A stretch of 53,073 nt of DNA from an uncultured Clostridia bacterium (GTDB lineage Bacteria > Bacillota > Clostridia > TANB77 > CAG-508), in the NCBI GenBank assembly GCA_944387425.1, contig CALXEV010000007.1:1-53073 (forward strand), given 5' to 3'. Both the position numbers and the translations under genes were made by a program. This document shows, in pieces, positions 30,467-39,662 of the stretch (its first letter is position 1; the number at the start of each line of letters is the position of its first letter). The notes beneath the pieces were generated by a model, which saw only the letters and a list, made by a program, of their open reading frames with translations, made no database searches and was not told where the DNA came from.

Positions 30467-30820
30467 TTATAATATTGCTTTTTCTAATCTTTCTATTCTT
30501 TGTAAATTACTTTTGTACATTGATTCAGTTGAAGTTTGAAAAGACCACAATATTTCTTCAATATCTTCTTTATCTTTATTCAATTTTCTATAAAGTCTAT
30601 CCCAGCGTTTTTCATTTTCTTCCCAACGTCTATCGTTTTCTTCCCAACGTTTTTCGTTTTGTTCCCAACGTTTATCGTTTTCTTCCCAACGTTTTTCGTT
30701 TTGTTCCCAACGCTTATCGTTTTCTTCCCAACGTTTTTCGTTTTGTTCCCAACGTTTATTGTTTTCTTCCCTAAATTCATTGATTGCTCTAAGGATTTGA
30801 ACAGCCATGTCTTCACTCAT
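30467..30820 (-). CDS. Small coiled-coil protein with eight KRWEEN-type heptads
   Basis: The 117-residue protein has a short N-terminal helix (MSEDMAVQILRAINEFREEN), eight consecutive 7-residue units of the form KRWE(E/Q)N(D/E) (about residues 22-76) and a C-terminal helical segment ending RIERLEKAIL. Trp at every seventh position implies a regular coiled coil. The 354-nt frame starts at ATG 30820, 7 nt after GGAGGTGAG; longer in-frame starts lack a site. DNA of the repeat is 21 bp in period. Similar repeats occur in DUF3782-like proteins of other bacteria, recalled not searched. The gene is flanked by short inverted repeats. Confidence 0.7.
   Translation of the reverse strand: MSEDMAVQILRAINEFREENNKRWEQNEKRWEENDKRWEQNEKRWEENDKRWEQNEKRWEENDRRWEENEKRWDRLYRKLNKDKEDIEEILWSFQTSTESMYKSNLQRIERLEKAIL
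30601..30768. repeat. Eight 21-bp tandem repeats encoding the heptads
   Basis: Units beginning CCCAACG recur every 21 bp (30601, 30622, 30643, 30664, 30685, 30706, 30727, 30748), with alternate units more alike, giving a 42-bp higher-order period. Confidence 0.85.
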
Positions 30821-30934
30821 ATGCTCACCTCCTTTCGGATTAAGTTTTAATTTTTGTTTAAATAAGAATAAAAAAATAAAATAATAAAATTTGATTAAAA
30901 AAATATGAAATAACAATTTTGATTAAACGCAAAT

Positions 30935-34807: not shown

Positions 34808-36439
34808 TTATGATGCTTTTTGATTTCTCAATTCATTTGCATATTTAAGTGTTACTTCATTTATTTCTCCTGAAGAAATTCTAGCAATTTCACATATTAC
34901 TTCTTGCTCATTTAATAATTGTACACTTGTAGTAGTTCTTTCATTTTCTACTTTTTTGCTAATGAAATAATTATAATCTGCAATTGCAGCAATTGGTGCT
35001 AAATGTGATACACATATTACTTGATGTTCTTTTGATATACTTTTCATTTTACTTGCAACTGTTCTAGATGCTTTCCCACTAATACCTGTATCTATTTCAT
35101 CAAATATTACTACTGGAATTCTATCAACTTCTGTCAATACTTTTTTGATTGCAAGCATAATTCTTGACATTTCTCCACCAGAAGCTATTTTGCTTAACTC
35201 ACTTTCATTTTCTCCGACATTTGTTTTTATAAGGATTTGTACACTGTCTTTTCCATCTTCGAAAAATTCATTTATTTTATATTCTACTTTTATATTTATT
35301 ATTGCATTTGTCATCTCTAAATCTAATAATTCCTTATTAATTTTAGAACTTAATTTTTGTGCTTCTTCTTTTCTAATTTCACTAATTTTTTCTGCAAGTT
35401 TTGTCATTTCATTTTCTAACTCTTTTTGTTCTTTTTTTAGTTGTTCATTATATTTGTCAACATTTTCTATTTTATCTATTTCTGTTTTTACTTCTTCTCC
35501 ATATTTTAATATTTCTTCTATGTTGTTTCCATATTTTCTTTTTAAATTATAAAGTGTATCAAGTCTTGTTTCTATTTTTTCTATTTCTCGCTCATCAAAT
35601 TCTATATCTTCCATATAATTATTTATATCTCTTGATACTTCTTGAAGATTATAATATGAATTTCTTAAGTTTTCGATTGTTTCTGTATATTTTGAATCTA
35701 TTTCTTCTATTTTTTCTAATGCTCTAATTGCTGAACTTAGCATGTCTATGGTATTTTCTCCAACAGCTTCATTTGCTTCTGACAAGTTTTTAGCTATTTT
35801 TTCAGAATTTAATATAATCTTTCTCTTTTCTTCTAACTTCTCTTCTTCTCCTGTTTTTAATTTTGCTTCTTGGATTTCATTTAGTTGATATCTTAATAAA
35901 TCTAATTTTCTTTGTTTTTCTTTTTCGTCTCCATAATTTTCTCTTAATTCTCTTTTTATTTCATTATATCTAGTATATTTATTTTTATATTCTACTTTTA
36001 AGTCAAAAATTTCTTTTCCTATAAAATTATCTAAATATTTAATATGTGTTTTATTATCAAATAGTTGTTGATTTGCATTTTGTCCATGTATTTCAATATA
36101 ATTACTCATAAAATTTTTTAGTTCTGCTACAGTTACTAATCTTCCATTAATTTTACACATATTTCTACCATTTGAATATATTTCTCTTGTTATTATTATA
36201 TTTCCATCTACAGAATTGATATCGTCTGGTGAATACATACATAGTTCTACATATGAATGATTTTCGCCTTTTCTAATTATTTCTTTAGAAAATCTTCCAC
36301 CACATATAATATTAATTGCATCTATTATTAATGATTTTCCTGCTCCTGTTTCTCCTGTGAATACATTCATTCCTTTGTTTAAATTTATTTCTAAATCATC
36401 TATTATTCCTATATTTTTTATATGTATATTTGAAATCAT
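34808..36439 (-). CDS. recN: DNA repair protein RecN
   Basis: RecN is an SMC-like ATPase that acts on double-strand breaks. The 543-residue protein has Walker A GETGAGKSLIIDAI near the N-terminus, an HGQNANQQLFD motif typical of RecN, two long coiled-coil arms, and the C-terminal signature LSKIASGGEMSRIMLAIKKVL followed by PVVIFDEIDTGISG. Length is normal. The upstream region, between it and uvrA, contains a separate ncRNA transcribed in the same direction, whose terminator lies 120 nt before the start. Confidence 0.96.
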   Translation of the reverse strand: MISNIHIKNIGIIDDLEINLNKGMNVFTGETGAGKSLIIDAINIICGGRFSKEIIRKGENHSYVELCMYSPDDINSVDGNIIITREIYSNGRNMCKINGRLVTVAELKNFMSNYIEIHGQNANQQLFDNKTHIKYLDNFIGKEIFDLKVEYKNKYTRYNEIKRELRENYGDEKEKQRKLDLLRYQLNEIQEAKLKTGEEEKLEEKRKIILNSEKIAKNLSEANEAVGENTIDMLSSAIRALEKIEEIDSKYTETIENLRNSYYNLQEVSRDINNYMEDIEFDEREIEKIETRLDTLYNLKRKYGNNIEEILKYGEEVKTEIDKIENVDKYNEQLKKEQKELENEMTKLAEKISEIRKEEAQKLSSKINKELLDLEMTNAIINIKVEYKINEFFEDGKDSVQILIKTNVGENESELSKIASGGEMSRIMLAIKKVLTEVDRIPVVIFDEIDTGISGKASRTVASKMKSISKEHQVICVSHLAPIAAIADYNYFISKKVENERTTTSVQLLNEQEVICEIARISSGEINEVTLKYANELRNQKAS

Positions 36440-36560
36440 TTTTAACCTCTTCCTGATACATATACTACAAATATATGTTCGTGTTTATTATACAATTCTT
36501 TTTTGTTAATTGTCAATACTTTTTGCGAACTTTTTTTCGTTTTTATTAACTTTAAAAAAG

Positions 36561-36600
36561 TAAAAAGGCGCCCCCCTATCAACTATTGCTGATAGGGGGG
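36561..36600 (-). terminator. Terminator of the ncRNA
   Basis: A perfect 10-bp stem, CCCCCCTATC/GATAGGGGGG (36571-36580 with 36591-36600), is followed on the minus strand by CGCC and T5. Confidence 0.9.
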
Positions 36601-36756
36601 CTACTGTATGCTAGACCACTAGAGCATAAACTCTGGGTCTTAGGATAGGGATTCTTAACGTGAGGAGGTAAAACTCAAGGTTGTGAATCATGAAAAATAT
36701 TTACATGACAGAATCCCTTTTAATGTTACGAGCATGTGCTTATTAGCACTTAATGC
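36561..36756 (-). ncRNA. Unassigned structured ncRNA of about 195 nt
   Basis: The minus-strand unit has a promoter just upstream and ends in a strong terminator. The predicted fold in 5' to 3' order is a hairpin (36745-36749/36736-36740), then a closing stem 36731-36735/36608-36612 around a junction with an 8-bp stem (36710-36717/36648-36655) holding a small hairpin (36704-36708/36688-36692), and a composite hairpin (36636-36640/36613-36617 with inner 36631-36634/36621-36624). A single-stranded-looking ACCTCCT (36663-36669) resembles the 16S anti-Shine-Dalgarno. No long ORF exists. The branched shape argues against 6S RNA; the raiA motif of Firmicutes is a candidate I could not test. Confidence 0.7.
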
Positions 36757-36762
36757 ATTATT

Positions 36763-36791
36763 ATAATACCATAAATTAACATAATTGTCAA
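36763..36791 (-). promoter_or_regulatory. Sigma-A promoter of the ncRNA
   Basis: TTGACA (36786-36791), a 17-nt spacer and TATTAT (36763-36768) on the minus strand. An overlapping TATAAT at 20-nt spacing is the alternative -10. The predicted start of transcription is near 36756. Confidence 0.75.
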
Positions 36792-36833
36792 CATTTTTGT
36801 CGATTTTTTTAGAAAATGTTGATTTTTGAATAT

Positions 36834-39662
36834 TTATTGTTCCAAATATTTTTTTAGGAACTTCCCTGTATAACTTCTCTCATTTTTACAAATTTGCTCT
36901 GGAGTACCTACTGCAACAACTTCTCCTCCTGCATCTCCACCTTCTGGTCCTAAATCAATAATATGATCTGCTGTTTTTATTAAATCTAAATTATGTTCTA
37001 TTACAATAATAGTATTTCCTGTATCTACAAGTCTTTGTAAGATATCTACTAATCTATGGACATCAGCTATATGTAATCCTGTAGTTGGTTCGTCTAATAT
37101 ATAAAGAGTTTTTCCTGTTGCCCTTTTTGATAATTCTGTTGCAAGTTTTACACGTTGTGCTTCTCCTCCAGATAGTGTAGTTGAAGGTTGTCCTAGTTTT
37201 ATATATCCTAACCCTACATCATATAGTGTTTGAATTTTTTGTTTTATTTTTGGAATATTTGCAAAGAATTCTAATGCTTCTTCAACTGTCATATCTAATA
37301 CATCTGCTATATTCTTTCCTTTATATTTAACTTCTAGAGTTTCTCTGTTATATCTTTTTCCTTTACATACTTCACAAGGAACATATACATCTGGTAAGAA
37401 ATGCATTTCTATTCTATGAACACCATCACCAGAACAACTTTCACATCTTCCTCCTGATACATTAAAACTAAATCTGCCTTTTTCATATCCACGCATTTTA
37501 GCTTCATTTGTTCCTGCAAATATATCTCTTATTAAATCAAATGTACCTGTATATGTTGCTGGATTTGAACGTGGTGTTCTTCCTATTGGTGATTGGTCTA
37601 TATTTATTATTTTATCAATATTTTCTAAGCCTTTAACTTGTTTGCATTTTCCTGGTTTTTCATTTGAACCATTCAATTGTTGTGATATATTTTTATATAA
37701 AACTTCATTTATTAATGTACTTTTTCCTGAACCTGATACACCTGTAACACAAATAAATTTTCCTAGTGGAAATTTTACACTAATATTTTTTAAGTTGTTT
37801 TCTGTTGCTCCAACAACTTCAATATTTTTCTTATTTCCTTTTCTTCTTGTTTTTGGAACATTAATTCTTTTTCTTCCACTTAAATAATCTCCTGTTATTG
37901 AACCTGGTATATTTTTTATTTCTTCTGCAGTTCCTTGTGCCATTACTTGTCCACCATGTACACCCGCTCCTGGTCCAATATCTATTATTTGGTCTGCTGC
38001 ATACATTGTATCTTCATCATGTTCTACAACTAATAGTGTATTTCCTAAATCTCTTAATTTTTTTAGTGTTGCTATTAATTTATCATTATCTCTTTGATGA
38101 AGTCCAATACTTGGTTCATCTAATATATATAATACTCCTGTTAATCCTGAACCTATTTGTGTTGCTAAACGAATACGTTGTGCTTCTCCTCCAGATAATG
38201 TTCCTGCACTTCTTGAAAGTGTAAGATACTCAAGTCCAACATCTATTAAGAATTGTAATCTTGCATCAATTTCTTTTAAAATCATATCTGCTATCATTTT
38301 TTGTGAAGATGTTAATTCAAGATTTCTTAAGAATTCTTGTAATTGTCTAATCGACATATCTGTAATTTCGTTGATATTTTTATCTCCAATTTTGATGCAT
38401 AATATTTCTTTTTTTAGTCTTGCACCATTACATTCATCACAATGCATATTACTCATATACATTTCGTAAAAATCTCTCATTCCTTGAGATTTTGTTTCAT
38501 TATGACGTCTTTCTAGTGTTGGTATTACTCCTTCAAATGGTGCTCTAAATTTTCTTATTCCTGCATATGATTCATATTCAAAATCTATTTCTTCAGAACC
38601 TGTTCCATATAATATTTTTTCTATAAAATCTCTTGGTAAATCTTTGATTTTTTTATTTTTTATGTCTATTCCATAATGCCTTCCTACACTTTCAAAGTAC
38701 ATTCTTGCCATTGTGTCGCCTTTTTTCATTGTACTTGAACCAAATGCTTTTACACCATCATATAATGTTTTATTTTTGTCAGGAATGATTAAATCTTCAT
38801 CCATTTTCATTAAATATCCTATTCCTGAACATTTTGGGCAAGCTCCGTATGGATTATTAAATGAAAACATTCTTGGTGTTAATTCTGGAAAACTAAATCC
38901 ACAGTCTGGACAAGCATAATTACAGCTATATAGTACTGGCTTTTTTCCAATAACGTCAATTAATACCATATTGTCCGCTTTTTTTAATGCAATTTCAATT
39001 GATTCTGTTAATCTACTTGTGATATCTTCTTTTATTACTAATCTATCAACAACTACTTCTATTTCATGTTTTTTATTTTTGTCAAGTTTTATCTCATCTG
39101 TTAATTCATATATCTCTCCATCTACTCTAACTCTTGCAAATCCATCTTTTTGTAGTTCTTCAAATAGTTTAGTATATTCTCCTTTTCTACTTCTTACTAC
39201 TGGAGCTAATATTTGTATTCTTGTTCCTGGCTCTAGTTTTAAAACATTATCAACTATTTGGTCTATTGATTGTTTTTCTATTTTTTTACCACAGTTTGGG
39301 CAATATGGAACTCCGATTCTTGCAAAAAGTAAACGTATGTAATCATATATTTCTGTTACTGTTCCTACTGTTGAACGAGGATTTTTAGATGTAGTTTTTT
39401 GGTCTATTGAAATTGCAGGAGAAAGACCATCTATTGATTCTACATCTGGCTTTTCCATTAAACCTAAAAATTGTCTTGCATATGATGATAAACTTTCTAC
39501 ATATCTTCTTTGTCCTTCTGCATATAATGTGTCAAATGCAAGTGAGGACTTTCCTGAACCAGAAAGCCCTGTTATTACTACTAATTTGTCTCTAGGTATT
39601 TCTAAGTTGATATTTTTTAGATTATGTTCTTTTGCCCCTTTTATGATAATTTTGTCATTCAT
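36834..39662 (-). CDS. uvrA: Excinuclease ABC subunit A
   Basis: UvrA detects bulky DNA lesions and loads UvrB. The 942-residue protein contains two ABC modules, each split by a zinc-binding insertion: Walker [13 protein letters not shown] and [10 protein letters not shown], zinc fingers CPNCGKKI.. / [14 protein letters not shown] and [14 protein letters not shown], and two signatures [20 protein letters not shown] and [19 protein letters not shown]. Length is standard. It follows the transglutaminase-like gene with 15 nt between them. uvrB is 3.7 kb away on the opposite strand, so the genes are not an operon here, unlike in most Firmicutes. Confidence 0.97.

Follow-up and report, generated by a model that had tools for sequence, protein, structure and literature searches.

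The window analysed here, a 53,073-nucleotide stretch of DNA from an uncultured Clostridia bacterium, contains between uvrA and recN a small RNA gene which, judged from its sequence, is real, orphan, lineage-restricted and of a known general kind, with a predicted transcript. The initial annotation had called it an autonomous RNA gene. This autonomy is well supported by a promoter, a terminator, the folding and a syntenic homologue, transcription itself being deduced, and it is qualified by possible read-through from uvrA.

Results

Transcription signals and coding capacity

The RNA gene is located on the minus strand. Its candidate promoter, TTGACA-17-TATTAT with TG before the -10 element (36763..36791), is an 11/12 match of the sigma-70 type and agrees with the near-consensus promoter described in the initial annotation. 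From the promoter position the transcription start was predicted at approx. 36757. The predicted small RNA of approx. 195 nt (36561..36757) has a single copy in its own genome. The GC-rich terminator described earlier was recovered by the terminator scan as a 14-bp hairpin with 9 GC pairs and a U tract (36560..36601, minus strand); this hairpin, at 36601-36563, was the sole terminator-like site in 36400-36900, while shuffled sequences gave a mean of 0.3. The higher local GC content was also reproduced, 37% in the RNA segment as compared with 28% in the window.

The segment had further been described as free of ORFs, and no credible one was found. The longest minus-strand ORF has 26 codons and is without a Shine-Dalgarno sequence, and none of the minus-strand ORFs was convincingly conserved in comparison with the homologue described below. 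A small plus-strand ORF (18-27 codons) at the site was dropped, since that strand is without a promoter. Because uvrA, 43 nt upstream, is without a terminator of its own ahead of the RNA promoter, transcription from uvrA into the RNA is possible. Elsewhere in the window, the minus-strand ORF at 30467-30916 carries a 14-residue repeat, WEENDKRWEQNEKR, encoded by a 42-bp DNA repeat.

Folding of the RNA

The minimum free energy of the predicted RNA was -69.7 kcal/mol, versus -40.8 +/- 4.0 for dinucleotide shuffles (z -7.29). Since a z value of -4.35 persisted after removal of the terminator hairpin, the folding signal exceeds that of the terminator alone. On the minus strand, the 5' hairpin GUGCUAAUAAGCAC (36736..36749; pairing probability 0.9-0.99) is followed by P2, a long branched hairpin with AGGGAUUCU/AGAAUCCCU as its closing helix (36647..36718; 0.87-1.0), by the 11-mer UAUCCUAAGAC (36637..36647) and by the bulged hairpin P3, GACC-C-AGAG(UUUAUG)CUCU-A-G-U-GGUC (36614..36639). 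These three hairpins and the terminator had pairing probabilities of approx. 0.9-1.0.

The initial annotation had joined mutually compatible helices into a closed multi-branch fold, and this part of it was not sustained. The helix AUGCU/AGCAU, which would enclose P2 and P3, had a base-pair probability of about 0.1, the form closed by it was one among several nearly isoenergetic structures, and no such closing helix was present at the corresponding place of the homologue. The RNA is a string of separate hairpins, of which P3 alone shows evidence of conservation.

The homologue in a sister species

One homologue was found, in genome G029 of the same genus, where it lies in the same uvrA-recN gap and on the same strand. 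Identity between G029 and the window is 74% for recN and 94% for uvrA. The promoter in G029, TTGACA-17-TAAAAT (L026:3630-3602), matches that of the window, UAUCCUAAGAC is identical at 11 of its 11 positions, and after it stands the counterpart of P3, the hairpin GACAC-G-GGAG(UAUA)CUCC-A-C-G-GUGUC. On the covariance-model alignment 18 of the 18 P3 cells were paired, with two pairs changed on both sides, and 33-50% of the cells were paired in the slid controls. These two compensatory changes support P3 without proving it: the covariation is thin because the alignment consists of two sequences, and 128 of 500 shuffles equalled the observed values.

The covariance models R1 and R2 were based on a 47-nt core (36608..36654, minus strand). 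R1, made from the window only, recovered the G029 homologue with 21 bits (E 0.078 over 347 kb); on 8.5 kb the match had an E value of 0.0019 at the correct place and strand. The G029 core by itself was modestly more stable than its shuffles (z -1.53). The position of P2 is taken in G029 by a different hairpin, the 5' hairpin GUGCUAAUAAGCAC was looked for there and not seen, and the 3' end contains long hairpins without a U tract, so that the window terminator is not conserved. The segment lengths of the two RNAs differ as well, and outside the promoter, the 11-mer and P3 the divergence is past recognition by blastn.

Distribution among relatives

Covariance searches with R1 and R2, the two-sequence model included, covered the genus (211 genomes), the order (385) and the class (391) and yielded only the window and G029, under strict filters by which weakly similar relatives were possibly overlooked. 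All listed weak additional matches were inspected and judged to be due to chance; they fell on terminators, on coding DNA or on a glmS ribozyme that precedes glmS. The last of these, at L254:1501-1542 (G029:C2), is a glmS-ribozyme-like element directly 5' of glmS, which matches the core model by chance resemblance (CUCUAGUGGUUUAGCUU). Comparison by blastn with relatives, phages and plasmids gave generic promoter matches at most, or nothing. The promoter matches were rejected as RNA homologues, since they precede unrelated accessory genes or T-boxes; at L056, where the promoter only is matched, an ORF occupies the place. The exact pattern TATCCTAAGAC..GTC matched the window alone in 195 genomes of the family. 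In viral contigs, the many listed matches of this pattern and of a second one were judged by inspection or model score to be chance, mostly in coding DNA.

Adjacency of uvrA and recN was found in few relatives. Among the 30 closest genomes, the RNA was present 3' of uvrA in the window and G029 only; in the other close relatives the site is either empty or occupied by different small genes or by repeats, and in G385 (L204) the recN promoter stands directly after uvrA. Since no third member was found and the other close relatives differ at the site, the RNA gene is, by its distribution, accessory and fast-evolving, and it would most simply be read as a recent accessory gain.

Two further features of these loci were recorded. 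Promoters of the type TTGAnAATTATGTTAATTTATGGTATAATA, to which that of the RNA gene belongs, recur genus-wide before many small accessory genes (L003-L024, L207, L209-L211, L214), whose codon usage is often GC-richer than that of the host. Short interspersed repeats, GGGGACTGTCCCC and TTTGGTGCCGGTTCTCTTTTTTCC, are found near the 3' end of uvrA in many relatives (L202, L203, L206, L209-L211 and L214).

Search for known RNA families

In an Infernal cmscan of the whole window against Rfam 15, no family matched the RNA at the gathering cut-off. A permissive scan of the window RNA returned chance-level matches only (E 1.3-3.3, far under the cut-offs and on the wrong strand), and the same scan of the G029 RNA likewise gave chance-level matches far under the cut-offs. 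The opinion of the initial annotation, that the RNA is not a tmRNA, RNase P RNA, SRP RNA or T-box, was supported by the gathering and the permissive scan alike. Its dissimilarity to 6S RNA was also borne out: there was no match to RF00013, and the real 6S RNA of the genome was found on another contig (G000:C1:28979-29171, 88.7 bits).

Discussion

The explanation which we tentatively prefer, with somewhat less than even confidence, is that the gene encodes a single-copy, independently transcribed small RNA which acts in trans by base pairing; the ancestor of the two sister species would have acquired this gene between uvrA and recN, with fast evolution thereafter. An exposed UACCUCC would pair with the Shine-Dalgarno sequences of target mRNAs, both pairing and targets being predicted, and would in this way block their translation, whereas P3 and the terminator may confer stability or serve as a contact site for a protein or another RNA. 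A trans-acting blocker of this kind is favoured because the motif is exposed in both RNAs and because masking of ribosome-binding sites through an unpaired C-rich motif is an established mode of action of Gram-positive small RNAs (PMC3961350). In the window UACCUCC lies in the inner loop of P2 (36664..36670, minus strand; unpaired probability mostly 0.8-0.9), and in G029 it is unpaired after P3; thus it is not positionally conserved. ACCUCC occurred in dinucleotide shuffles of the two RNAs with frequencies of 0.028 and 0.014, and 7-mers common to two RNAs often arise by chance. Many duplexes are possible, since GGAGG precedes the start in 30% of the 1198 predicted genes of the genome. The best predicted duplexes, of 12-13 bp, involve two ribosome-binding sites, one belonging to an ArsR-type repressor gene and the other to a polysaccharide-type tyrosine kinase gene (identities read off the translations). 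Because the motif suits any strong ribosome-binding site, these target predictions are non-specific.

The CCUCC stretch would be a matter of chance if the RNA had a protein-binding or an unrelated structural role. This alternative is somewhat unlikely, though it accords with the fact that the sole part with evidence of conservation, the bulged P3 and the flanking 11-mer, resembles a recognition site for a protein or ligand; no protein gene travels with the RNA, however, and uvrA and recN occur without it in most relatives. It is improbable that the segment is a non-functional, decaying insertion (the remnant of a mobile element or a lost accessory gene) whose promoter and hairpins are accidental. 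The variability of the site 3' of uvrA, which often harbours accessory genes under similar promoters, the presence of the RNA in 2 of 211 genomes of the genus, and the differences in P2, terminator and lengths between the window and G029 would be consistent with decay. But the promoter, the 11-mer and P3, with its two compensatory changes and its unaltered arrangement of bulges, were kept while the rest diverged, and the strong folding of the window RNA (z -7.29) also argues against it. A similarly low probability is given to a cis-acting attenuator, a leader or its relic, which once regulated recN or still limits read-through into it. The RNA and recN are indeed on the same strand, with the terminator 122 nt ahead of the recN start codon. 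However, recN has a perfect promoter of its own, TTGACA-18-TATAAT (minus strand, 36516-36487), between this terminator and its start codon, followed by the box CGAACATATATTTG (36468-36481), which is LexA/DinR-like by the Bacillus consensus. Since the gene downstream is recN with this arrangement, which is kept in relatives, including those without the RNA, the attenuator and T-box readings fail. In addition, G029 is without a U-tract terminator, and neither a conserved leader peptide nor a common alternative antiterminator was found between the window and G029. In L055, approx. 150-400 nt before recN, a tandem duplicate is seen of an element which measures about 95 nt and has long inverted ends (TAGTTATATATTAATATTTTTTGGACAAAACATAGCT...GTCCTGCAAAATATTnATATATAACTA).

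Binding of the anticodon arm of tRNA-Leu(UAG) by UAUCCUAAGAC, by which the RNA would sense or sequester this tRNA, is very unlikely. When the whole RNA was compared with the 21 tRNAs found, the longest complementary stretch measured 10 nt and fell in this anticodon arm; the pairing UCCUAAGACC / GGUCUUAGGA spans the entire 7-nt anticodon loop, and G029 has an identical arm. Of the conserved 11-mer, 9-10 nt are complementary to the arm; 6 of 5000 shuffled 11-mers reached 9 nt against the 21 tRNAs. On the other hand, the match was spotted post hoc in a list of 9-mer matches, and a 10-nt match of the whole RNA to some anticodon arm arises in approx. 2% of shuffles, a share that would rise with a full tRNA set. 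Moreover, the GACC part of UAUCCUAAGAC sits in helix P3, the G029 element is sequestered by UUAGGAU at a cost of about 5 kcal/mol to open, and the RNA has neither a T-box sequence nor an Rfam T-box match. That the RNA represents a new family which uses its conserved core to bind the anticodon loop of tRNA-Leu(UAG) in trans is hardly to be expected; such binding, if true, would mean tRNA sensing or titration outside the T-box architecture.

For the gut Clostridia of this large uncultured lineage, the finding means one more well-delimited small RNA, an orphan that Rfam lacks. The G029 copy has diverged so fast that its recognisable remains are the promoter, the 11-mer and one hairpin, and the case shows lineage-restricted small RNAs arising at variable spots between housekeeping genes. 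The consequences outside the lineage are limited unless a tRNA or translational role holds.

Comparison with known systems

The RNA resembles 6S RNA (RF00013) in its similar length and its autonomous gene, and differs from it in having no match to the model and in not forming a single long bulged rod. With the T-box leaders (RF00230) it shares the order of promoter, hairpins and terminator, and a codon-like CUA triplet in the element whose complement is the anticodon loop of tRNA-Leu(UAG). In contrast to them, it is without Stem I motifs, T-box/antiterminator sequence and cmscan match, and the gene downstream is recN with its own promoter instead of an aminoacyl-tRNA synthetase or amino-acid gene. 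Like tracrRNA it is short and autonomous, with a 3' end of hairpins and terminator, but since no CRISPR array was seen in the 1.36 of 1.42 Mb (approx. 96%) of the genome searched, this identity is unlikely. From RNAIII and RsaA of S. aureus and LhrC of Listeria the RNA is set apart by the lack of an Rfam match, by a C-rich stretch which is not conserved in position and by its far narrower distribution. It is similar to these RNAs in its independent promoter and terminator, its chain of hairpins and its unpaired C-rich anti-Shine-Dalgarno stretch, CCUCC in the window RNA and UCCC in the known ones.
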